From Acidobacteriaceae bacterium (GTDB lineage: Bacteria > Acidobacteriota > Terriglobia > Terriglobales > Acidobacteriaceae), in the NCBI GenBank assembly GCA_027452245.1, contig DAIDGW010000108.1, positions 1 to 64,000 of the forward strand: a stretch of 64,000 nt of DNA. The letters run 5' to 3'. Every line of letters starts with the position of its first letter. The stretch's first letter is position 1. The translations under genes and the position numbers were made by a program. Shown here in pieces: positions 5,243 to 26,658 of the stretch. Below the pieces are notes generated by a model, which made no database searches, was not told the origin of the DNA, and was given only the letters and a program-made list of their open reading frames with translations.

Positions 5243-6154
5243 ATGTCGGAACGACGTTCGCGCACCCTCCTTTGGATTCTGATCGGCGGAGGAGCTTTCT
5301 TCCTCTTCGTACTGGCCGTTTTCTCGCTCGTGTACATCGTCTTACACGCCGGAAACAATGAAAGCAGTATCGGGTTCGGCGGCGACCGCATCGGAGTCAT
5401 CGACCTCGATGGCGTGATCCTCTCGCCCGAGCCAGTCGTCGACGAGTTGAAGAAATTCGGCGATGACTCTTCGATCAAGGCGATCATCCTTCATATCAAC
5501 TCGCCTGGCGGCGGAGTTGCCGCTTCGGAAGAGATTTATCGCGAGGTGAAGCGCGTCCGCGAGCAGAAGAAAAAGAAAGTCGTCGTCTCCATCGAAACCG
5601 TGGGCGCCAGCGGCGCGTATTACGTTGCCTCCGGTTCCAGCAAGATCTACGCCGACGAAGGCAGCATCGTGGGCTCCATCGGAGTCATCGCCCAGTGGGT
5701 GAACTATGGCGATCTGCTGAAATGGGCCAAGCTGAAGGACGTCGTCCTTAAAACCGGCGAATTTAAAGATACGGGTAATCCTGCCCGAGAACTGACTCCG
5801 GCGGAGCAGGCCTACATGCAGTCGCTTATCGACAACATGTTCGGCCAGTTTATCCAGGCAGTGGCCAGCGGCCGGGGGATGAAATACGACGATGTGAAAG
5901 CCATCGCCAACGGTAAGGTATGGACCGGCCAGGAAGCTCTCTCGATGAAGCTGATCGACGGCATCGGAGACTTCCAGACCGTGGTTGCCGATACCGCCAA
6001 GTCTGTGGGAATAAAAGGAGAACCGACGCTGGTCCATCCCGAAACAGAGCGCAAAACTTTGCTCGACCTCATGACCGGAGACATTTCGCAATACATCCCC
6101 ACCCGGGCAAAAATGCTCGAGGAAGAAGCGGGCTTTTATTATCTCTGGAAGTAA
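5243..6154 (+). CDS. sppA: Signal peptide peptidase SppA, short form (peptidase S49)
   Basis: Membrane-anchored serine protease that cleaves leftover signal peptides, facing the periplasm. One transmembrane segment spans about residues 9-34. The Ser/Lys dyad is visible: Ser123 in GASGAYY and Lys175 in TGEFKD. Their 52-residue spacing equals that of Ser147/Lys199 in B. subtilis SppA. At 303 residues it is the short, single-domain form rather than the duplicated E. coli form. TAAACT at 5231-5236 lies 6 nt before the ATG and there is no Shine-Dalgarno, so the mRNA may be leaderless. Confidence 0.94.
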   Translation: MSERRSRTLLWILIGGGAFFLFVLAVFSLVYIVLHAGNNESSIGFGGDRIGVIDLDGVILSPEPVVDELKKFGDDSSIKAIILHINSPGGGVAASEEIYREVKRVREQKKKKVVVSIETVGASGAYYVASGSSKIYADEGSIVGSIGVIAQWVNYGDLLKWAKLKDVVLKTGEFKDTGNPARELTPAEQAYMQSLIDNMFGQFIQAVASGRGMKYDDVKAIANGKVWTGQEALSMKLIDGIGDFQTVVADTAKSVGIKGEPTLVHPETERKTLLDLMTGDISQYIPTRAKMLEEEAGFYYLWK

Positions 6155-6271
6155 GGCGCGATCGAGCGCCACCTCCGACTGCATCAGTCCGCCGGAAGCT
6201 GAACCTTTGTCGGCTGCCTGCCATGTCTCAAAACCGTAACTTGCATTAACTACCTGAAATTTGAGAAGGTT

Positions 6272-6349
6272 ATGAAGATGTTCCGGCGCTGGCCGGAAGC
6301 TTGCCCGGGTACCGTTTGCAAGCACAACCCGCAGGAGGCGTAAGGCACC
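6272..6349 (+). promoter_or_regulatory. Structured leader with possible 23-codon upstream ORF before the HU gene
   Basis: Two adjacent perfect hairpins lie in the leader: TTCCGGC/GCCGGAA (6281-6298, 4-nt loop) and GCTTGC/GCAAGC (6299-6323, 13-nt loop). The HU Shine-Dalgarno AGGAGG follows at 6333-6338. An ATG at 6272, just after GAGAAGG, opens a 23-codon frame that ends in TAA at 6341-6343, six bases before the HU start, and contains the HU ribosome-binding site. This could be translational coupling or leader control. It is inference from structure only. Confidence 0.45.
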
Positions 6350-6694
6350 ATGACCAAAGCCGATCTGATCGATGAAGTTTCGCGGTTGGCGGAACTCACG
6401 CGCAAAGACAGTGAAGTGATTGTGGAAACGATCTTCGATAGCGTTGTGCGCTCTCTGCGGGCGGGTGACAAGATCGAGATCCGCGGCTTTGGCAGCTTCC
6501 GCACCCGTCAGCGTAAGCCGAGAGTGGGACGGAACCCGAAGACCGGCGAACGCGTCGAAGTACCGGCCAAGAAAATTCCCTTTTTCAAACCCAGTAAGGA
6601 ATTGAAAGACCTGGTCAATGAAGGAATTCCGGCGGGATCAGCCCAGGCGGCTCCGCCTACGGCCGTTCCTCCCGCTGCCACTCCGGCTACTTAG
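6350..6694 (+). CDS. HU/IHF family DNA-binding protein
   Basis: Small basic nucleoid protein that bends DNA as a dimer. The first 92 residues are a standard HU/IHF fold. The beta-arm tip carries GRNPKTG at residues 60-66, where Pro63 is the residue that intercalates into DNA in the family. A 22-residue Ala/Pro-rich tail (93-114) is added after the fold; such low-complexity tails occur in some HU variants. A strong AGGAGG precedes the ATG at 12-nt spacing, behind a structured leader. The sequence GDKIEIRGFGSF leaves HU versus IHF-alpha unresolved, so no gene symbol is given. Confidence 0.95.
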   Translation: MTKADLIDEVSRLAELTRKDSEVIVETIFDSVVRSLRAGDKIEIRGFGSFRTRQRKPRVGRNPKTGERVEVPAKKIPFFKPSKELKDLVNEGIPAGSAQAAPPTAVPPAATPAT

Positions 6695-6696
6695 CC

Positions 6697-6897
6697 TTAC
6701 GGCCGCGGACCTCGGCTCGCCAGCAAAAAACATCCCCCCAAAAACGAGAGAATGCCCACCAAAATGGCGAAAGCCATCCCTGTCCAAAAAACCGGGTTTT
6801 GATTTGGGGTGTTGAGCGAGTACCGGTGGATTAGCGCTCCATAGGCAACTGTGGTTGTCAGGACGGACAGTCCGCAAAAAACTTTCAGTATTCGCAT
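6697..6897 (-). CDS. Small two-helix membrane protein, hypothetical
   Basis: A 66-residue protein with two likely transmembrane segments: about residues 5-24 (FCGLSVLTTTVAYGALI) and 38-60 (FWTGMAFAILVGILSFLGG). It has a short positively charged C-terminus. It ends 2 bp after the HU stop on the opposite strand and has an ATG start. No family is recognised. The hydrophobic pattern and tight packing against HU make a real gene plausible, but this is not proven. Confidence 0.5.
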   Translation of the reverse strand: MRILKVFCGLSVLTTTVAYGALIHRYSLNTPNQNPVFWTGMAFAILVGILSFLGGCFLLASRGPRP

Positions 6898-6960
6898 TCA
6901 TCCCTCATAAGCTGCAAATTGAGTGGCCTTCTCTCGCATTCCTCAAGAAACAGGCTACCC

Positions 6961-8076
6961 CTACTTCCCCAGAAAAAGATCCGCTACCTTCAGCGCCATC
7001 GCTTCCGGATTCAGATCGTCCCGGTTACACAGAATGATGATGGAGAGCTGATCTGACGTAAATCTTTCGATGACGTTCCGGAAGCCCACAGTCTCTCCCG
7101 TGTGCCACATCCGCTGCTGTCCCCGGTACGGATCCACGAACCAAGCGAAACCATACTGTCCCGGCATATGGTCATCCCGAGCCGCTAAAACTGGCGTCAG
7201 TGCCGGCGCCATCTCCTTCGAAGTCAGAAGAGTATGCATCTTTAAGGCCCGGTCCCATTTGGCCAGATCCGTAATCGACGAATAAACACCGCCGTCGCCC
7301 AACACGGCGGAAGTGGAACTCTGATCGTGTTCACGCCATTCGCCATTCAGCTTCGTGTATCCGTAAGCCCGTTCGAACACGTCATTCTTGCCTCTTTCGT
7401 AGGCAATGGTCTGCGTCATGCCTAGCGGCACAAAAATATGATCTCGCAAGAATGTGCCGAAGGGCTGACCGGACACCTTCTCCACAATCAACGCCAGAAC
7501 CGCGTATCCCGAATTGCTGTATTCCCACTTCGTTCCCGGAGGAAACTTGCCCGCATGCTGTTCTTCCAGCAGTTTGAGGACGCCAGCGTCGTGGATCTGA
7601 GGGATCATGGCATCCGCGGTTTTGGGATATTCCGCAGTCAGCAGATCTTCATAATCGGGCAACCCCGACGTATGGTTCAGCAGGTTCCGAATGGTAATCG
7701 TGCGCCCGTAGGCAGGGAACTCGGGAAATATGTCCGTCAGGTGCTCGTCGTAGCGCAGTTTGCCATCACGCGCAAGCAGCATGATAGCGGTCGCGGTGAA
7801 CTGCTTGGTGACCGATGCCAGGCGGAAATTAGTATGCGCATCGATCGCGCGCTTGGTCTCCAGATTGGCCAGACCATATCCGGCTTTGAAGACTTCTTTA
7901 CCGTGGTCGATGACCAGCACGGCGGCCCCGGGAGCCGTCTTCGACTGAAGCGGAGCAAATATTTCAGCGATCTGCTCCGTTCTGTCCTGCGCCGCGCTGG
8001 AATTAAACAGCCCCGTCAAAAGCAGGGCCGCCAGGAAGGAATTCATTTTCAACCCGGAGGTGAATCTGATCTTCAC
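6961..8076 (-). CDS. Secreted serine hydrolase, beta-lactamase/penicillin-binding (class C) fold
   Basis: Exported 371-residue serine hydrolase of the beta-lactamase family (peptidase S12 type). A signal peptide covers about residues 11-29 (MNSFLAALLL to SSAAQ). The nucleophile motif SVTK is at 88-91, the YSN motif at 186-188 and the third motif HTG at 325-327, where KTG is more usual. These proteins range from D-aminopeptidases and esterases to beta-lactamases, so the substrate cannot be set and resistance should not be assumed. The start is either GTG at 8076 or ATG at 8046; the latter puts the signal peptide right at the N-terminus. Confidence 0.88.
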   Translation of the reverse strand: MKIRFTSGLKMNSFLAALLLTGLFNSSAAQDRTEQIAEIFAPLQSKTAPGAAVLVIDHGKEVFKAGYGLANLETKRAIDAHTNFRLASVTKQFTATAIMLLARDGKLRYDEHLTDIFPEFPAYGRTITIRNLLNHTSGLPDYEDLLTAEYPKTADAMIPQIHDAGVLKLLEEQHAGKFPPGTKWEYSNSGYAVLALIVEKVSGQPFGTFLRDHIFVPLGMTQTIAYERGKNDVFERAYGYTKLNGEWREHDQSSTSAVLGDGGVYSSITDLAKWDRALKMHTLLTSKEMAPALTPVLAARDDHMPGQYGFAWFVDPYRGQQRMWHTGETVGFRNVIERFTSDQLSIIILCNRDDLNPEAMALKVADLFLGK

Positions 8077-8108
8077 TGGCGGTCATGATAACTGAATTGT
8101 CGCCGTGT

Positions 8109-9689
8109 TTACTTCTGTGCTTTCGGGCCGGCGGCCTTCACTTCCGGCGGGGCATCGAATTTCTCGATGTTCTCCGCAAAACGGCGCCGCAGATCTTCAG
8201 CCGCCTTATCGTAGGCAGCCTTGTCGGGCCACGCATTCCGCGGATTCAGCACTTGCGGTGGGACTCCCGGACACTGTTTGGGAATGCTGAATCCAAACGT
8301 TGGTTCGATCTCGAACTGTTCGTGGATCAACTCGCCTTCCACTGCCGCATCTACCATTGCACGAGTGTAGGGAATGTCCATGCGGCGGCCGACACCGTAC
8401 GGTCCGCCCTGCCATCCTGTATTCACCAGCCAGCATTGCGCCTGATGCTCGCGCAAGCGCCGTCCGAGCATCTCGGCATAGACTTTTGGCGCCAGCGGCA
8501 AGAACGGCGATCCAAAGCAGGTCGAAAACGTCGCTGACGGCTCCTTCACACCGGCTTCGGTGCCGGCCACCTTCGCCGTATATCCCGAGAAGAAGTGATA
8601 CATCGCCTGCTCCGGTGTGAGCCGCGAAATAGGAGGCAGCACTCCGAAGGCATCGGCCGTCAGGAAGACGACATTTTTCGGATGTCCGCCGACGCCGGGG
8701 ATCACCGCGTTCTCAATAAAGTCCACCGGATAGGCCGCGCGCGTGTTCTCCGTTTTGCTGTCGTCGTTGTAGTCCGGAATCCGTGTCGCCGGATCCAGCG
8801 TCACATTCTCCAGCACGCAGCCGAAGCGCAGCGCATTCCAGATTTGAGGTTCATTCTTCTTGGACAGCTTGATGCACTTGGCGTAGCATCCGCCTTCAAA
8901 GTTGAAGACACCATCGGCGCTCCATCCGTGCTCATCATCACCAATCAGATAGCGCGACGGATCGGCCGACAATGTCGTCTTGCCTGTGCCGGACAATCCG
9001 AAGAACAAAGCGCTCACTCCGTTGTGGCCGATGTTTGCCGAGCAGTGCATGGGAAACACGTTGCGCGAGGGCAGCAGGTAATTCATCACGCTGAAAATGC
9101 ACTTCTTCATCTCTCCGGCATAGGAAGTACCGCCGATGAGAACCGTTCTTCGGGTGAAATTGAGAATGACGAAGACTTCCGATTGCGTGCCGTCGCGTGA
9201 GGGGTCTGCTTTGAAGTCCGGAGCGGAGATTACAGTAAACTCGGGATGATGCGAGCGCAACTCTTCCTGTGTGGGACGTAGAAAGAGCTGTCGCACGAAT
9301 AGATTGTGCCAGGCGTATTCCGTAACCACGCGGACCGGCAGGCGATATTCCGGATCAGCACCGCAAAACAGATCCTGCACGAACAACTCGCGTCCCCGCA
9401 GATGCTCCATGACACGCTCGTAGAGCATGTCAAACTTTTCGGTCGAAATCGGCTGATTCACCGCTCCCCAGGCGACCGTACGCTCGGTCGTCTCATCTTT
9501 CACGATGAACTTGTCTTTTGGGGAACGGCCGGTTCGATTGGTATATCCCACCAGAGCCCCATTGGCCGCGAGCTTGGCTTCCTGACGCCGGATCGAGTGT
9601 TCGACGAGAAGTGCCGGCGAAAGATTAAAATGAGTTCTGCCGTCGCTTAACAACTCTGCAACATCGCTTACGTGCATCGTTGTGGCCAT
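8109..9689 (-). CDS. pckA: Phosphoenolpyruvate carboxykinase (ATP)
   Basis: Gluconeogenic enzyme converting oxaloacetate and ATP to phosphoenolpyruvate, CO2 and ADP in the cytoplasm. The kinase-1a P-loop GLSGTGKTT is at residues 231-239 and the metal-binding kinase-2 aspartates are in IGDDEHGW at 249-256. The N-terminal segment [12 protein letters not shown] (residues 50-61) contains the Arg that contacts oxaloacetate. The length of 526 residues fits the ATP-dependent family. A Shine-Dalgarno (GGAGACCCAG) precedes the ATG at 9689. About 200 bp of AT-richer sequence upstream separates it from the next minus-strand gene and probably holds its promoter. Confidence 0.96.
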
Positions 9690-9893
9690 CTGGGTCTCCT
9701 AAAAACAACGCAAGGTTCGTATTCTCCCGCAAGACGTCCGATTATGCCAAGTGTTCAGTTTTCCAAAATCGGTCGCAAACGGAGCTAACCTCGTTCGGAT
9801 GCAGAAAGATACGAATACGTTGAACAAAGCAGGAAGCGTTTTTTCTTCAGATATATTTCAGCTAATCTTCAGGATTCTGGAACCAGTTTCGAA

Positions 9894-10253
9894 TCACACT
9901 CCCGCGGGTGCAGCCTGCATTTCCGCAACCGCCTGGTCGAGATGTCTTAGTGTTTCGTCCACCGTTAGCGAGTACATTTCGCGCCCTGCACCTTCGCCGG
10001 ATTCAAGCGCCGTCCTTAAGTAATGTCCCGCAATTTCGACCGCCAACGGATCGGTGATCATCTTCCCGGTGCGTTTCTTGTACTCTACCCATGCGGGCGC
10101 TGGCAGCGCGACCCACACCTTGCGTCCATCCACAAGGAACTTCAAATCAATTGCATCGGCATGCCTCGTTGCAATGGCAACAATCATCGCCTGATACACG
10201 CAGTGAACTTGCTTCTTCGTCCAGCGGTCGGTAGCAGTAAAATTTTCGAACAT
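9894..10253 (-). CDS. Hypothetical protein, 119 aa
   Basis: Small soluble protein with no signal peptide or membrane segment. The middle has the pattern LKFLVDGRKVWVALPAPAWVEYKKRTGK, then a helical C-terminal half rich in Glu and Ala (LAVEIAGHYLRTALESGEG). The family is not recognised. It lies between pckA and the M1-like gene on the same strand, with wide gaps to both, so it is probably a single-gene unit. The codon use is like that of its neighbours. Confidence 0.65.
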   Translation of the reverse strand: MFENFTATDRWTKKQVHCVYQAMIVAIATRHADAIDLKFLVDGRKVWVALPAPAWVEYKKRTGKMITDPLAVEIAGHYLRTALESGEGAGREMYSLTVDETLRHLDQAVAEMQAAPAGV

Positions 10254-10345
10254 GTGTCTAAAAATGATATCGGACGGAACGTATTTGGGGCAAACCGTTA
10301 TCTCGAACCACGCCGATCAGGCAGCCAGTCTCACAAGTAGATTTT

Positions 10346-12889
10346 CTAGTTGATCCTCGCAAGAACTGTCTGGTGGGGATCGATTACAATTTTTCGTGTT
10401 CCTATCAGAGCCTTGATGCGAAACGTCGACTCCGCGCCGTCCGCAAATACTCTCCCCAGTAGGATCTCCTGCTTGCTCGCTAACACGGCATAAAGCGGGA
10501 TCGACGTCACCAGGTCATCTGGGCTGTCTTTCTGCAGAATGGTTCCGTTCACGATCAAAGATCCTTCATGGCTTGTCATCCTGACATTTCGCAATTCAAA
10601 TCTCGGCACCGCTGTCCCATTCACCCATCCCACCACAAACCAGTCTAGAGATTTCTTCCCCTCATAACGAAGAGCGGGAGGTAAATTCTCCGCAAAAGCT
10701 TCGAACAACTCGCGGGTGCTGATCGTTTTATCCTGATACCGCTCGCGGATATTCCGCAGGCCTCTAATGAATGGCTCGTCGGGACCTTCCGGCGGATGTC
10801 CATATTCTTGCGTCGCCGCATCTTGCATCATCGTCCGCAGCATGTGGAATAGCCAAGTACCCCTGCCATAAAGAATGTCTTCATACCCTTCCGGAAAACG
10901 CGATGACAGCAGCCGCGCTCCCAGTGTTACCGGACCGGCCTCCGCCAACGTCGCTCCTGCCTTGTTCTTCACCAGCAGATCTTCCCGGTAATGTTCCATA
11001 AGCTGGTGAAAAGCGATAGGGTTGCTTTTTTCCAGCATCATCAGGGACGAATAATTCGCCAAGGCTTCCGATAGCCACTGATCACGATACGTGCTCCAAC
11101 CCACCAGATCTCCCCACCATTGATGCGCCGTTTCGTGTGCCGGAATCTGCTTTTGAATGAGAATCCTGGTCGAATCGAAGTGCAGGTCCGAGCGCTCCTG
11201 ATCGCTGAGGAAAGCATAGGAAGATAAGAAGACGAGTCCCGGCCACCCCTGGCTCTCCGGCCCCGGCATTTGCGTAAGAGCAAGACTTCCAAACGGGTAC
11301 GGTCCGAAGCACTTCGAATAAAACTCCACGGCTTGAGCGGCGGCCTGGGCGACACCCATCTGCGTACGAGTCGGCGAGGGATTATCCGGCCCGCTGATCT
11401 CGACGCGGGGAGCGTGCTGGATATTTCCACCGGGCAACGAGGTGATGTCAGGATCTACAACTCGCGCCGAGCTCGTGGGGAAATCTCTTTCGACACCCCG
11501 CGTCGCATATGTCCGGATCTGCACGGTTCCAGCCTGCGCAGTCGCCACCTTGTATTTGCCGAGATCAAATCCCGCAACTGGTATTGGCCTCTCCGAGACC
11601 CAATGTGAGCGCTGCTCACCGTCGGTCTGGCTTTGGGGTGCCTCCGACTTCCCTGTGGCGACCAAAGTCCAACCCTGCGGATAACGGAAGGTTAAATCGA
11701 AATCTGCCATCGACATCCCGCGGTTCGGATACCAGGTTCCCCGCGCTCCCACGTAGAGCAGTCCCGCCCCCGCTTCCGCCAATACGTCTCCCGCATACAC
11801 GAAATGCAGCTTCATCTTCTGCCCGGGCGACGCAGGTTGCGGCAGGACCACTGCCACAACATCATTCCCCCGCCTCGAAGCTTGCGTTCCTTCCTGTGAA
11901 GGATTGTGGATAAACTCTACCGGCTTCCCATTCATCTCCACGCTCTGAACGTCAAGGAAACGCGAAAGTTCAAAGATGAGGATGCGAGGACTGCCTTGTC
12001 GTATTTCCACTTGCAGGGTAGCGTCGGAGCGAAGTTGCTTGGGAGGGATAATCTGCGACGAGATCACGTAATCCCGAATCGCTACCGGATCTTTGGCGGG
12101 GGTCGAACTTTCTGATTCCGAAGCTTCTCCAAACCGACCGTTTACCGGCACTCCCTTCAACGGCGTGAACGAAGTCCACACGTCGTAATACTGCCTTCCA
12201 TTTTCAGCGGTGCGCAGTTGTCCAACTTGCACCTTCTCCGGCGCGAAGGAGTCGTAATCCACATCGAAAACTCCTAGTTGGACGCCCTGCAGGCGTGCAT
12301 GCAACATGCGATCGCTAGTGTCGATGTTGCCGCGCGATCCTGATCCTTCCGCTGGCAATAAGTTTCCGAAGCTGACCAGCAAACGCATCGCATCGATGTT
12401 CGCAAGGTTGCGCACAGTTGTATCCCACTTCTGCACAAATTGCTGCGCATCGTCCGTCGCGCGCAGATCTGGGCGCAACTCATTCATCGCGTCGTCATTG
12501 AACCGGAAGAATGCTGTGGCGAAACTCTCCTCCAAAATCGCCATTCCCGTGAATAGGCTCATCGATCTTCTCTCAACGTCGTTGGGTGGACTGATCAGCA
12601 CCTCTCCTTCCCCTTCGAAGAAGGCTCCCGTCACCCGCCCCATAACATCTTGTGTGAAGGCAATCGTTCCGTTGTTAAGACTGATGTGAACGGCAGATCG
12701 CTCGAGCGATGCGTCGCGCACCTGATAAACGCGCGCGGGATCGAGACCTGTATTGGCGAGTTGCAGGTACAGCGCTTCGGCGGGCTTGGTTGCGGAACTC
12801 GCCTGGGCGCCTGCAATACCGCTCAGCAGCAAGACCCCCGCGGCACAGCCGATTACCAACTCCCGCACTCGCACTGGTACCTTGGTCAC
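10346..12889 (-). CDS. Secreted M1-family (gluzincin) peptidase-like protein
   Basis: Exported 847-residue protein whose C-terminal half is an M1 aminopeptidase-type catalytic domain. A signal peptide ends near residue 29. The zinc motif HETAH is at 585-589, with the third ligand Glu608 in WLSEALANY, giving the canonical HExxH-x18-E spacing. The GxMEN exopeptidase motif expected about 30 residues earlier is not visible: the segment there reads QMPGPESQGWPG. The first roughly 270 residues do not resemble the M1 beta-saddle and may be a separate domain. It could be a membrane-associated peptidase with altered specificity, or a zinc protein without exopeptidase activity. Confidence 0.85.
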   Translation of the reverse strand: MTKVPVRVRELVIGCAAGVLLLSGIAGAQASSATKPAEALYLQLANTGLDPARVYQVRDASLERSAVHISLNNGTIAFTQDVMGRVTGAFFEGEGEVLISPPNDVERRSMSLFTGMAILEESFATAFFRFNDDAMNELRPDLRATDDAQQFVQKWDTTVRNLANIDAMRLLVSFGNLLPAEGSGSRGNIDTSDRMLHARLQGVQLGVFDVDYDSFAPEKVQVGQLRTAENGRQYYDVWTSFTPLKGVPVNGRFGEASESESSTPAKDPVAIRDYVISSQIIPPKQLRSDATLQVEIRQGSPRILIFELSRFLDVQSVEMNGKPVEFIHNPSQEGTQASRRGNDVVAVVLPQPASPGQKMKLHFVYAGDVLAEAGAGLLYVGARGTWYPNRGMSMADFDLTFRYPQGWTLVATGKSEAPQSQTDGEQRSHWVSERPIPVAGFDLGKYKVATAQAGTVQIRTYATRGVERDFPTSSARVVDPDITSLPGGNIQHAPRVEISGPDNPSPTRTQMGVAQAAAQAVEFYSKCFGPYPFGSLALTQMPGPESQGWPGLVFLSSYAFLSDQERSDLHFDSTRILIQKQIPAHETAHQWWGDLVGWSTYRDQWLSEALANYSSLMMLEKSNPIAFHQLMEHYREDLLVKNKAGATLAEAGPVTLGARLLSSRFPEGYEDILYGRGTWLFHMLRTMMQDAATQEYGHPPEGPDEPFIRGLRNIRERYQDKTISTRELFEAFAENLPPALRYEGKKSLDWFVVGWVNGTAVPRFELRNVRMTSHEGSLIVNGTILQKDSPDDLVTSIPLYAVLASKQEILLGRVFADGAESTFRIKALIGTRKIVIDPHQTVLARIN

Positions 12890-22051: not shown

Positions 22052-23611
22052 ATGAACTCCGCTCCTCTCAGTTACATACCGAGGCTGCTGCCCTCCCGGC
22101 TTCCCCGGGTCTGTGTCGCCGTAACCGGCACAGATCCTGGCCAAATGATTGAAAAGGCAGAGACTCTGGTAAGGGATAACCCCTTCCTTGAGTTCCGCCT
22201 CGACTACCTTTCCAAGCCAGCTCTGGCTTTGCCCCGCATTAAGCGCTTTCTCGAAATGCATCATTACGTTACGGTCATTGCCACCTGCCGGCGGGCGGCC
22301 AATGGTGGCAAATTTCGCGGCTCAATCACCGCCCAGCTCGATCTCCTTTCCAAAGCCGCTTCCGCAGGTTGTCAGCTCATCGATGTGGAACTCCAGACCG
22401 CCAGCAAGTGCAAGCCGGATCAGCTGAAAAAGCTGCGTTCCCGGGCTAGCCTGATCCTCTCCTTCCACGACTTTCACGGGACCAAAAAGCTGGAGCAGAC
22501 GCTTGAGAAGATGCTGGAATATCCGGCCGACATCTACAAACTCGTCAGCACCGCGACCACGCTTTCCGACAACCTGACCATGATTAAGTTCCTCGCAAAA
22601 GAGAGCGACCGGCACTCCCTGGTTTGCATGTGCATGGGAGAGCAGGGAATTATCAGTCGCGTTCTCGGGGTTCGTGCCGGCAGCGTTTTCACCTTCGCAG
22701 CCGCCATCGCGGGCGAACAAACCGCCCCCGGCCAGGTGACCGCTCAGGAGCTTCGGAATATTTATCGCATCGATCACGTCGATGCCGCGACCCGGGTTTA
22801 CGGGGTCGCCGGCGATCCCATCGGCCACTCACTCTCGCCCACAATCATGAATACGGCGTTCCGCCGCGAGAACGTGAATGCCGTCTACCTCGCTCTGCAC
22901 GCCAAGACCGTCAAAGATCTGGTGGCCTGCATCCGTGAGATACCGATTCACGGCGTCAGTGTCACCATGCCGCATAAGGAAACGATCATTCCTTTCCTCG
23001 ACAACACTGACGCGCACACCGCAAAAATCGGCGCATGTAACACCATCGTTCGCGGCCAGGACGGAAAAATCTACGGCTTCAACACCGATACCGCCGGTAT
23101 CGTCCGGCCTCTTGAGCGGCGCCTCAGCGCAATCGAAGGCGCTAAGATCCTCGTCCTTGGCGCCGGGGGAGCAGCTCGCGCCGCCGTCTTCGGATTGAAG
23201 GAACGCGGAGCCGAAGTCTACATCCTCAACCGCAGCGCCGCTCCCGCCAAGAAGCTGGCTCGGCAGGCGCGGGCGCGGACCATCAAACGCGCCGATCTGA
23301 AGAAGCTTACTTTCGACGTAATCATTAACGCCACCCCGGTCGGCATGGGCAATACCCGGGAAACGCCCCTTGAGGAGAAAGAAATCAATGCCCGCTATGT
23401 CTTTGATATGGTTTATGATCCCGCTGAAACCCGCCTCCTGAAACTGGCCCGCGAACGCGGCGCCCAGATCATTCCAGGGATCGAGATGTTCGTTCAGCAA
23501 GCCGCGCGTCAGTTCGAAATCTGGACCGGGAAGCCTGCTCCCGGCGACGAAATGTTGCGCATTGTTCTCCTGGAACTGCAAGAACGTGCACGTGCCCGGG
23601 CTGTGAAATAG
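22052..23611 (+). CDS. aroDE: Bifunctional 3-dehydroquinate dehydratase / shikimate dehydrogenase
   Basis: A fusion of shikimate-pathway steps 3 and 4. Residues about 18-230 are a type I dehydroquinase: His139 in SFHDF and the Schiff-base Lys163 in IYKLVSTA match the E. coli AroD pair. Residues about 249-510 are shikimate dehydrogenase: GDPIGHSLSP at 254-263, the catalytic Lys309 in MPHKE, Asp346 in NTDTAG and the NADP-binding loop GAGGAARA at 370-377. The order AroD-AroE is that known from plants and chlamydiae. At 519 residues both halves are full-length. aroC lies 35 kb away in this window, so the pathway genes are dispersed. Confidence 0.95.
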   Translation: MNSAPLSYIPRLLPSRLPRVCVAVTGTDPGQMIEKAETLVRDNPFLEFRLDYLSKPALALPRIKRFLEMHHYVTVIATCRRAANGGKFRGSITAQLDLLSKAASAGCQLIDVELQTASKCKPDQLKKLRSRASLILSFHDFHGTKKLEQTLEKMLEYPADIYKLVSTATTLSDNLTMIKFLAKESDRHSLVCMCMGEQGIISRVLGVRAGSVFTFAAAIAGEQTAPGQVTAQELRNIYRIDHVDAATRVYGVAGDPIGHSLSPTIMNTAFRRENVNAVYLALHAKTVKDLVACIREIPIHGVSVTMPHKETIIPFLDNTDAHTAKIGACNTIVRGQDGKIYGFNTDTAGIVRPLERRLSAIEGAKILVLGAGGAARAAVFGLKERGAEVYILNRSAAPAKKLARQARARTIKRADLKKLTFDVIINATPVGMGNTRETPLEEKEINARYVFDMVYDPAETRLLKLARERGAQIIPGIEMFVQQAARQFEIWTGKPAPGDEMLRIVLLELQERARARAVK

Positions 23612-23642
23612 TCGCCCTCAGATGCATACATGAAAGAAGAAG

Positions 23643-23706
23643 TTGCATTTTTAGTGCTGCCCAAAGTATTATGCACTTAGGAAATGCAAACTTCACTGTA
23701 TTTCCT
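23643..23706. repeat. Overlapping inverted repeats between aroDE and gvpL/F
   Basis: Two inverted repeats share one arm. TTGCATTT/AAATGCAA (23643-23650 with 23682-23689) encloses AGTGC/GCACT. AGGAAAT/ATTTCCT (23679-23685 with 23700-23706) uses the same bases, so both hairpins cannot form together. It may be a terminator for aroDE or a switchable leader for the next gene; no T-tract follows. Confidence 0.5.
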
Positions 23707-23831
23707 GAGTAATGGTGACCCTGTACCGCCCGTTAATCTTCCAGATTCACCAAGTTCAGCTTTGGCGAAAGCTTAAACACTAATGAGGGGCGGTTCTCTA
23801 CGCCTCCCTACCCGGTTCGGAGAGGTTCAAC

Positions 23832-24578
23832 ATGGCGTGGTACGCGTATTGCCTTACCGAGCATCAAACTCTCCCAAATGGAACCCGCACTCGCCGTCCT
23901 TTTTTGATGGAAGGCGTTCAGGGGGTCAATGGCGCTTCAGTTCTCAGCTATCCGAGCGGCGAGTTTGCCGTCGTGGTCAGTGAGTTCGATCACGCGGCGG
24001 GGGAACTCGACCAGAAAGCGGCCATCGAGCACGCTCGTGTTGTCAGTGCGTGCTTTCGCAATTCCACCGTGCTTCCCTTTAAATTCGGAACCATCTTCGA
24101 CAGTGATGACGCCCTGCGACAGGCCGTGCGCGTCAACCGCCGGGCTTTCGGGCAAAGCGTTGCCAGACTCCGCGGCAAGGCCGAGATGCACATCAAACTC
24201 GTCGTCCGCGATGGTTCGCTCCGCGAAGCCATGATTGACGTCGAACTTCCGCCGACCGTTGGCGGCGACTACCTTGCCAAGCTGCGCGAAAAGGCGTCGC
24301 GCGAGCGTGAACGCCAGACCAAGGCGCGAGCGCTCTCGGTTCAGGTGCACAAGCTGTTCAATCCTTTGGAAGAAGAGATCAGCTGCAAGAAAGTTGCCCC
24401 CGAAGGAATGCTGATCGATATCGCCCATCTGATTGATTCCAAAAGCATTGAGAAATACCAGAACCGCTACAACACCGCCACCAAGCAGCTCAAGAACTGC
24501 CAGGTCGCCATGAGCGGACCTTGGCCCCCATACCACTTCCTGCCCGGTAAGCTGCGAACGGTGACCGGGAACAGCTAG
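23832..24578 (+). CDS. GvpL/GvpF-family gas vesicle protein homologue (orphan)
   Basis: A 248-residue cytoplasmic protein with the layout of GvpL/GvpF. It has an N-terminal MAWYAYCLTE strand and the family hallmark LPFKFGTIFDSDDALRQ around residues 77-93. Then follow KAEMHIKLVVRDG, a charged helical stretch (KLREKASRERERQTKA) and a C-terminal second ferredoxin-like half. In gas-vesicle clusters such proteins bind the shell during assembly, but no gvpA or other gvp gene is present in this window. A GAGAGG Shine-Dalgarno precedes the ATG. The orphan setting argues for either a remote cluster or a different role. Confidence 0.85.
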   Translation: MAWYAYCLTEHQTLPNGTRTRRPFLMEGVQGVNGASVLSYPSGEFAVVVSEFDHAAGELDQKAAIEHARVVSACFRNSTVLPFKFGTIFDSDDALRQAVRVNRRAFGQSVARLRGKAEMHIKLVVRDGSLREAMIDVELPPTVGGDYLAKLREKASRERERQTKARALSVQVHKLFNPLEEEISCKKVAPEGMLIDIAHLIDSKSIEKYQNRYNTATKQLKNCQVAMSGPWPPYHFLPGKLRTVTGNS

Positions 24579-24955
24579 TCTCAATCTGGACCGGTCTCAG
24601 GAATCGGTCCAGACAAATTCCCCCCAAAGAAATACCCATCAGTCAATGTGCATTGTTCTGCATTTTTTCCCCGACGGAATATTCCCCATCCGAGGTGCCA
24701 AGACCTCTATCCCATAGAAGTAACTCCTCAAATTTGCAATCACTTACAACGAGACGTGATTCCAATCACGTAAAAATACCGCTTTGGCTTCGGAAGTGCT
24801 TTAGTACGAGGTACGAAAGAGGCCGCAACCTCAATGAGCTGTATAACCTTCACTCTCTTCCAACATTCACTACGTTTCCCGCAGTACCGTTCTGGCTGGC
24901 GGAACGGTCTCCTGCTTTGCCTTTCCTGACCACCTACCAACTCGCCTCTTGAACT
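24579..24955 (+). ncRNA. Structured non-coding stretch behind gvpL/F (3' UTR or small RNA candidate)
   Basis: No credible protein gene lies in this 377-bp stretch. It holds several inverted repeats: TCTGGACCG/CGGTCCAGA (24585-24613), a perfect 18-bp palindrome ACGTGATT-CC-AATCACGT (24754-24771) and ACCGTTC/GAACGGT (24886-24908). It ends in a strong plus-strand terminator. Either gvpL/F has a long structured 3' UTR or a separate RNA is made here. No known RNA family was recognised. Confidence 0.4.
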
Positions 24956-24984
24956 GTGGCCCCGAAAATGGGGCCACTTTTTAT
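24956..24984 (+). terminator. Rho-independent terminator
   Basis: A perfect 8-bp stem (GTGGCCCC with GGGGCCAC) with loop GAAAAT is followed by TTTTTAT. The T-tract is only on the plus strand, so it ends rightward transcription; the next gene is on the minus strand. Confidence 0.92.
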
Positions 24985-25021
24985 TTCTTCCCGGCCCCAG
25001 CTGCTTATCACGCCAGCAATC

Positions 25022-25957
25022 TCATCCCTCTCGAATGCCCGCCACGCCCATGAGCCGTCCGGTTTTCCCTCTCTCCGCTCGGTAAGAGAATAAGAGTTCG
25101 CTATTGCAGTTTGTACACAGCGACGACGATTCGATATATCGTGCGCGGACGCCCGCCCCCAGCAGCTGCTGGCGGTTGGCTTTAGCCAGATCAAGAAAGA
25201 TTTTTTTGGGCAGAACACTATGCCCCGGCGCTCGCGCCGTCAGAAACAGCAGCGGATACTTCTCGCGCACCGGATCAGAATCTTTCACCTCGTGGAACAA
25301 ACTCGCGCCATACGAGAATTGCGCCTCAAACTTGCTCCTGATTTCCTCTCCCACCTCGTAGCAGCAGCTATGAATCCCCGGCCCGATCGCCGCCCGTAGG
25401 TCACTGGCCCTGCTTCCAAAGTGCAGCCGCATAGCTCCGACGCCCTTCTCCACAATCCTCCGGAACGTCCCCCGCCACCCAGCATGGAAGACTCCAATGG
25501 CCCGTTTCTTAGGATCAACGAGAATGACCGGAAGACAATCCGCCGCCTGGACTCCCAACAGCAAGCACGCCTGATTCGTAATCAGTCCGTCGCCGGCTTG
25601 AATCTCTCCATCCGCGCCGCTGACAAACCGGATAACGTCGGAATGCACTTGCCGCAGCGTCACGATCGGCCAAAGGCCTGACGGTTTCCCTCCCCGGTGG
25701 TTCGCGCCATTTCTCCTGTGCGACATGCTGTGGGTCGCGCCCACCTGCTGGAGAAAAATCTGGCGGTTCCGTTCTACGGCTGGCTTCTTATCGTCCTTGG
25801 TGAATCCCAGGTTGAGATCGCCCGGGCGATAAGCGCGGGAGACCCCTCCCAGACGCGTCGAGAAGCCGTGGATCAGCCACGGAAATTCCTTCAGCACCTC
25901 CGCCTGGAGAATCTTCAATTTGTCTGTATTTTTCGTTGCAGGGACCCGATTCGGCAC
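25022..25957 (-). CDS. pgeF: PgeF/YfiH-family protein (multi-copper polyphenol oxidase fold; purine nucleosidase-type activity)
   Basis: A 311-residue protein of the YfiH family, annotated either as polyphenol oxidase or as a peptidoglycan-editing factor/purine nucleoside phosphorylase. The metal-site motifs are present: a His in TLRQVHSD, the Cys in ADCLPV, the His in HAGWRG, and GPGIHSCCYEVG. A short insertion rich in His, Arg and Gly (HSMSHRRNGANHRGGK) precedes the first motif and is not usual. Its end points toward the GvpL side terminator, but no minus-strand T-tract is seen after its stop. Confidence 0.88.
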   Translation of the reverse strand: MPNRVPATKNTDKLKILQAEVLKEFPWLIHGFSTRLGGVSRAYRPGDLNLGFTKDDKKPAVERNRQIFLQQVGATHSMSHRRNGANHRGGKPSGLWPIVTLRQVHSDVIRFVSGADGEIQAGDGLITNQACLLLGVQAADCLPVILVDPKKRAIGVFHAGWRGTFRRIVEKGVGAMRLHFGSRASDLRAAIGPGIHSCCYEVGEEIRSKFEAQFSYGASLFHEVKDSDPVREKYPLLFLTARAPGHSVLPKKIFLDLAKANRQQLLGAGVRARYIESSSLCTNCNSELLFSYRAERGKTGRLMGVAGIREG

Positions 25958-26199
25958 ATAGCCATACTACAGGAAGGTATTTGGTGTCCCCGCAACCGGG
26001 TTCGGATAGGGCGGGTCCTACGAGCCATCATCAAGTTCCAAAAGGGATCGATTCCCGATCACAGATTCCCAAACTGGATTCCCCCTCACCATTGAGTCGT
26101 TGGCTGTTGCCTAAGTTCCGCATCCAGCAGCATTTTGCTGAGCCAAATTTCACAAATGCGCTGGCACGCAATCTGCTGTCAGACTATCGACGAGGTCAA

Positions 26200-26658
26200 A
26201 TGAACGAGACGGCGAGTTGGCAGCAACCCAAGGCGAAGTTAACGATTTTGCTCATTGAAGATGAGCCTTTCGTCCGAAAAGTAACTGAGCTCGTGCTCGC
26301 CAGCGCAGGCTACGAAGTGCTGGTCGCGAGCACTGGTGCGGAGGCCTTGCACCTCTTCAGCACTGCGCCGGAAATCGATCTGGTGATCTCTGACATCGTT
26401 CTGCCCGATGCCGACGGGCGAGCGCTCACCCGCAACATGGCCTTGCATCAGCCGGCCTTACCAATTCTCTTAATCACCGGTTATCCCGCGGAGCTCGCAA
26501 GGCAAGATCATCCGTCGAAACCTGCGGCCTGCCTGGCCAAGCCATTCTCCCGCGAAAAGCTGCTTCACCAAGTCGGCGAACTTCTATCCTTTGCCATGTG
26601 TGCTCCGATTATGGTTGCTCAAGGATCGACAGCGCCTCTCTATGGTGCGGTCTCCTGA
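26200..26658 (+). CDS. Single-domain response regulator
   Basis: A 152-residue receiver-only protein. The acidic triad is complete: EDE in LLIEDEPFVRK, the phospho-Asp in DLVISDIVLPDADG, and the Thr and Lys in LLITGYP and CLAKPFSREKL. There is no output domain, so it would act through protein contacts, for example in a phosphorelay. The frame is open upstream, but the ATG at 26200 begins just before the domain. No histidine kinase gene is nearby. The following gene's promoter-like TACAAT lies immediately after its stop. Confidence 0.85.
   Translation: MNETASWQQPKAKLTILLIEDEPFVRKVTELVLASAGYEVLVASTGAEALHLFSTAPEIDLVISDIVLPDADGRALTRNMALHQPALPILLITGYPAELARQDHPSKPAACLAKPFSREKLLHQVGELLSFAMCAPIMVAQGSTAPLYGAVS

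Follow-up and report, generated by a model that had tools for sequence, protein, structure and literature searches.

The window, the whole 64,000-nucleotide stretch of Acidobacteriaceae DNA that was analysed, carries a gene of the GvpL/GvpF family that stands apart from any other gas-vesicle gene and is here called the orphan. Its reading frame, at positions 23832-24578 of the plus strand, is complete, with an ATG start and 248 codons for amino acids. The motif GGAGAGG at 23819-23825 (+), six bases 5' of the start, is the ribosome-binding site, as read from the sequence; the block that surrounds it, CCCGGTTCGGAGA, is near-invariant in 35 aligned rows of close relatives. The encoded protein matches Pfam model PF06386 with 164.9 bits against a gathering cut-off of 23.6 (E 4.3e-48), a match that runs from residue 2 to residue 237 and spans positions 1-244 of the 245 in the profile, and it is thereby a member of the Pfam family. 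A profile built from orphan sequences matches it at E 1.2e-127. Narrower models do not claim it. When the window protein alone was run, the GvpL equivalog NF045778 scored 47.3 bits against a cut-off of 200, and NF052351, a GvpF model that is cyanobacterial by its name and hence a narrow test, scored 24.1 bits against a cut-off of 350.

Two motifs tie the protein to its family. The first, LPFKFGTIFDSDDALRQ, lies at 24072-24122 (+) and covers residues 81-97. Among 88 rows of GvpL/F proteins other than orphans, P82 is common to 87, F85 to 77 and T87 to 72; with residues so widely shared, the motif qualifies as a genuine mark of the family. The second, GPWPPYHF, is encoded at 24516-24539 (+), near the C-terminus (residues 229-236). 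Here G229, P230, W231, P232, P233 and F236 are common to between 73 and 86 of the 88 other rows and Y234 to 60, and H235 is specific to orphans.

An AlphaFold2 model of the window protein, computed with 20 orphan sequences as input (pLDDT 82.5, pTM 0.69), has the two-domain fold of GvpF. In a Foldseek search the model retrieved the GvpF structures 4QSG (E 1.6e-11) and 6L5D (E 3.9e-10) far above all others, and VIA-align gave full-length matches to both, with a Z score of 17.4 over 219 aligned residues for 6L5D_A and 16.4 over 223 residues for 4QSG. By sequence only, the link to these structures is weak: a single-sequence search retrieved neither 4QSG nor 6L5D at E up to 1, and the orphan profile retrieved 4QSG at E 0.017. 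The first-pass annotation of this DNA, made from the letters, had named a GvpL/GvpF-type protein at this position, with the LPFKFGTIFDSDDALRQ hallmark and a two-domain layout. The Pfam score and the predicted fold bear out the family assignment, the residues shared across the family bear out the hallmark, and the layout agrees with the model along its full length.

Upstream of the gene, a conserved element, GTTGCATTT...AAGTATTAT, occupies 23642-23672 (+), with 159 bp between its end and the start codon. The pattern of this element, GTTGC-A/T-TTT...AAGTA-AT, is present in all of 35 aligned rows, which comprise the window and the loci L072-L106 that have at least 330 bases upstream, one row that was too short having been dropped. 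The pattern has a single match in the window's own genome. A narrow form of it matched 71 of the 185 regions upstream of orphans, and the element therefore belongs to the nearer relatives of the window gene. By its position the element may be promoter-like; a generic sigma-70 scan of 23560-25060 called no promoter, and did not call the element. The leader had no match in Rfam up to E 1. The mean z for folding energy was -0.53 in 89 orphan leaders and -0.27 in 279 control genes (p 0.007 by the Mann-Whitney test). A common leader hairpin before the start codon, an impression gained by eye, is not claimed, as these energies lie just slightly below those of control genes. Downstream, a terminator-like hairpin with a T tail is seen at 24956-24977 (+), between the orphan and a convergent laccase-domain gene, and it is weak as a call because one such hairpin was found where 1.8 are expected.

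The draft genome that contains the window comprises 6,231,052 bases in 274 contigs and is 97.6% complete. PF06386 has one match in it, the orphan gene. Searches for GvpA (PF00741), GvpK (PF05121) and GvpG (PF05120) returned nothing from this genome. These searches work in the host family, since the same models gave positives in 15 of 60, 14 of 60 and three of five genomes, respectively. For GvpN (TIGR02640) the genome yielded sub-threshold matches only, a weak test given that just one of five genomes scored above the cut-off. A genus mate with a 100% complete assembly in 30 contigs, G084, has the orphan and likewise lacks GvpA, GvpK and GvpG. The context that would mark a gas-vesicle accessory protein, a genome with GvpA and other gvp genes, is not what surrounds this gene. 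The first-pass annotation had seen no other gvp gene in the window and had offered two explanations, a distant cluster or a role apart from vesicles. The absence of GvpA, GvpK and GvpG proves to extend to the whole draft genome. With one PF06386 gene and none of those three, a distant cluster is rejected as the explanation, and it is unlikely that one was missed in a draft of this completeness; the non-vesicle option is the one that gains support from what follows.

The orphan is almost universal in its host family. In a draw of 396 genomes from across the Acidobacteriota, PF06386 was found in 67, including all 44 genomes of the host family. A profile for the orphan type, A1, applied at a threshold of E 1e-20, matched the same 44 family genomes and none of the 352 others. 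In a larger draw from the family, with the threshold at E 1e-30, A1 matched 382 of 398 genomes. These include 251 of the 256 good genomes and represent 78 of 79 genera. It found no match in 16 genomes of that draw, of which five are good: G396, G400 (98% completeness), G428, G554 and G663. Nearly all other genomes have a single orphan, and G745 has two full-length orphan-type matches (G745:C30:29010-29735 and G745:C55:42687-43421). In one contig of a metagenome-assembled genome (L138, 4661-5413) the frame is split into two halves, by sequencing error or as a broken gene. The range of the orphan is known from these Acidobacteriota draws and from the titles of the best 80 among 449 confirmed loci, each of which gives Sulfotelmatobacter, Acidobacteriaceae, Acidobacteriales, Terriglobales, Terriglobia or Acidobacteria/Acidobacteriota. 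The closest named records among those best 80 of 449 are metagenome-assembled genomes of Candidatus Sulfotelmatobacter, Acidobacteriaceae, Terriglobia and Acidobacteria, at most 92% identical to the window gene. A plasmid search gave 30 records, all below 60% identity and with a top-ranked match 25% identical; nearly all are annotated as gas-vesicle proteins, and one has no annotation. Among the literature matches listed, a scope outside which most subscription journals fall, no vesicle-independent GvpL/F protein in Acidobacteria is described.

For a comparison with gvpA, 60 genomes of the family were drawn, representing 59 genera; 58 of the genomes have PF06386 and 15 have gvpA. Classification by a profile of 44 orphans placed the orphan in 42 of the 45 genomes that lack gvpA and in 14 of the 15 that have it; the genomes without an orphan by this profile are G396, G400, G409 and G428, and a partial match by A1 in G409 brings the first count to 43 of 45. 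The profile separates the two kinds of protein cleanly, with orphans at 325 bits or more and other GvpL/F proteins at 62 bits or fewer, and the only intermediate scores, 260 and 104, are the two halves of the split L138 frame. The gvp clusters that were sampled contained no protein of the orphan sequence type. The presence of the orphan does not follow that of gas vesicles.

This distribution bears on the idea that the orphan is a spare GvpL/F that still serves gas vesicles, for clusters that are repeatedly gained and lost in the family. Membership in PF06386, the GvpF fold and the occurrence of gvpA in a quarter of the family draw (15 of 60) speak for such an account, but the gene is also retained in nearly every genome without gvpA, and genomes that do carry gvpA have further GvpL/F genes. 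Three or more additional PF06386 matches occur in 13 of the 14 genomes with both gvpA and an orphan, and one in the remaining genome, G418; labelling by the 44-orphan profile finds fewer further GvpL/F proteins in some of them, where stretches were partly fetched or labelled. The case that the first-pass annotation had named as telling against a non-vesicle role, a gvp cluster without a gvpL/F of its own and dependent on the orphan, was accordingly not seen among the relatives. The orphans also form a separate clade with invariant positions of their own, and we regard continued service to gas vesicles as quite improbable.

In a tree of 146 rows (58 orphans, 70 cluster-type proteins and 18 reference GvpF and GvpL sequences), all 58 orphans fall on one side of a single branch with SH-aLRT support of 100 and a length of 1.61. 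The tree was made by a quick method with no bootstrap and carries a long-branch warning, and it does not fix where the orphans are placed among GvpF and GvpL types.

Comparison of 147 distinct orphans with the 88 other GvpL/F rows separates shared residues from those that are the orphans' own. Y6, G31, P82, F85, T87, E118, L200 and the C-terminal GPWPPY-F are among the positions that the orphans have in common with half or more of the others. Those conserved in 95% of orphans and in fewer than 15% of the others include W3, R19-x-R21-x-P23, N102, A155, R159-Q162, Q171, F176, P178, C185, D196, I197, H199, Y209-N211, C223 and H235. The segment R19-x-R21-x-P23, encoded at 23886-23900 (+), is an orphan-specific one, with R19 in 143 and both R21 and P23 in all 147 orphans, and its three columns are gaps in 87, 87 and 83 of the 88 other rows. 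C185 and H199 are present in every orphan, C223 in 140 and H235 in 144, and each occurs in 0-1% of the others.

Cysteines and histidines that are nearly invariant on one side of the comparison and practically missing from the other could hint at an unrelated new activity built on the GvpF scaffold, for instance metal or redox chemistry. Such an activity is improbable in our estimation; the only clear structural relative of the model is GvpF itself.

Substitution patterns argue that the protein is being kept. Among 71 orphans of equal length, the 30 that most resemble the window gene show dN of 0.05-0.10 and dS of at least 1.3, and the 27 for which the ratio could be computed give dN/dS of 0.02-0.07, values that are rough because dS is near saturation. 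They nonetheless point clearly to strong purifying selection, that is, to selection to keep the protein. A functionless relic of a lost gas-vesicle cluster might be suspected where a gene is isolated and the search of its genome reveals no further gvp gene. Against this stand the constraint on the protein and the conservation, among close relatives, of the upstream element. The gene also persists in 251 of 256 good genomes, and its sequence type is missing from every gvp cluster sampled. On selection and retention the relic reading is rejected, and we consider it hardly tenable.

Gene neighborhoods were compared at 185 orphan loci, including 89 from G-numbered genomes; several loci are short, and neighbors are visible only within the locus ends. 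In the window the orphan lies 220 bp 3' of aroDE and 443 bp ahead of the convergent laccase-domain gene. No universal operon partner was found among the loci compared, and neighbors differ between genera. The genes aroDE and DksA/TraR are retained around the orphan in many genera, aroDE also in genera where other genes intervene before the orphan. At 13 of the 89 loci, all within the 60-genome draw, a regulator gene is found on the same strand 151-2536 bp downstream; it is full-length, forms one orthologous group, and was labelled NtrC-type from its sequence. At five of these 13 a receiver-GAF-histidine kinase gene lies between orphan and regulator, and at seven a GAF-GGDEF gene lies divergently upstream (kinase and GGDEF domains by Pfam; the counts 13, 5 and 7 each include the genome that supplied the query). 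Orthologs of the regulator, at 66% identity or more, occur in 14 of the 60 genomes and always on the same contig as the orphan.

These neighbors raise the prospect of a signalling module in which the GvpL/F-fold protein would control or position a two-component or c-di-GMP system. Two genomes without gvpA, G257 and G419, add to it, since in them a cluster-type GvpL/F gene adjoins genes for a histidine kinase and a receiver-domain protein. The regulator ortholog is absent, however, at that 66% level from the other 46 of the 60 genomes and from the window genome, where the best match reaches 48% identity, and gaps of 66-891 bp to the next of these genes do not suggest a single transcript. Because aroDE and DksA/TraR are likewise retained nearby, plain synteny is sufficient to explain much of the association, and the signalling link is therefore treated as a rival and not as the main reading. 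We find it doubtful as the general account of the orphan; a regulatory link of some kind, suggested by neighbors in some genera only, is possible.

Other signalling genes were observed near members of the family. A single receiver domain (PF00072, 68.1 bits) is encoded in the window at 26179-26655 (+), about 1.6 kb after the orphan, and it is not the NtrC-type regulator of other genera. The second, cluster-type GvpL/F genes that adjoin a histidine kinase and a receiver-domain gene lie in L055 (G257, 8488-12351), L226 (G419, 5489-8972) and L057 (G265, 6702-9370), with Pfam as the basis for the kinase and receiver of L226 and for the kinase of L055; these loci are possibly remnant gvp clusters kept as signalling modules. 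In G420 (L233, 5714-14452), the GvpL/F genes of a gvp cluster have genes for a PAS-histidine kinase and a receiver-like protein between them; the cluster also has an ArsA-like ATPase, called by sequence motif. Gas-vesicle genes adjoining an arsA homolog have been noted in Acidobacteria, including Ellin345, in the part of PMC2963123 that concerns them.

No other gas-vesicle gene was found in the genome of the window, nearly all sampled relatives keep the orphan, and it therefore probably does a different job from gas-vesicle assembly. Near-universal retention, independence from gvpA, a separate clade and a private set of invariant residues all favor the non-vesicle option. We read the orphan as an ancient, vertically inherited protein of the GvpL/F fold that has become uncoupled from gas vesicles and would serve, in an adaptor or chaperone role, some client or partner distinct from GvpA, and we give this reading a probability of about 0.62. 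The analogy is with GvpF and GvpL: a small, soluble protein of this kind would have been repurposed for a non-vesicle client. A new client would be the simplest reading of a protein in which the fold and the family motifs are kept while another set of residues has been fixed. The binding sites that may have changed are the N-terminal R-x-R-x-P, RERQ on the long helix (159-162), DI-H (196-199), YQN (209-211), C185, C223 and H235. A broader proposition, to which we give even odds, is that the GvpL/F fold serves a core non-vesicle function across this family of soil bacteria; the protein would be an adaptor or chaperone, with a possible tie to two-component or c-di-GMP systems.

If it is true, the GvpL/F proteins of gas vesicles represent one use of a more general scaffold. 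In the host family, where a core-like gene has this fold apart from vesicles, the annotation "gas vesicle protein" misleads, and gvpL/F by itself is no basis from which to infer buoyancy. The passages on GvpL/F proteins in the literature consulted treat them as parts of gas-vesicle assembly. In the orphan, an assembly chaperone may have exchanged one client for another, which makes it a clean case for testing; as a single gene it is also a target for deletion in cultured relatives.

In the relevant passages of PMC7688916, PMC9501494 and PMC11445434, GvpF binds GvpA and is probably its chaperone, and GvpL serves as a platform. For a bacterial operon studied in E. coli, the passages of PMC11445434 on GvpF propose a chaperone role for it and report binding between GvpF and the shell protein only once other Gvp proteins, GvpG above all, had been removed. 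The orphan model shares the two-domain fold of the GvpF proteins of Microcystis (4QSG) and Anabaena (6L5D) along the whole chain, but the sequence is just 16% identical to theirs, has its own segment and invariant residues, and comes from a genome in which no gvp cluster was found. Homology to the GvpL of gas-vesicle clusters is detectable over residues 4-238, at a score far below the equivalog cut-off of NF045778, and the orphan lies outside any cluster. The cluster-type GvpL/F proteins of the same bacterial family, such as those of G420, G399 and G073, belong to the same Pfam family as the orphan and coexist with it in 14 of the 15 gvpA-positive genomes of the draw; they differ in falling far below the orphans' range on the orphan profile and in being located with gvpA, gvpK and gvpG.
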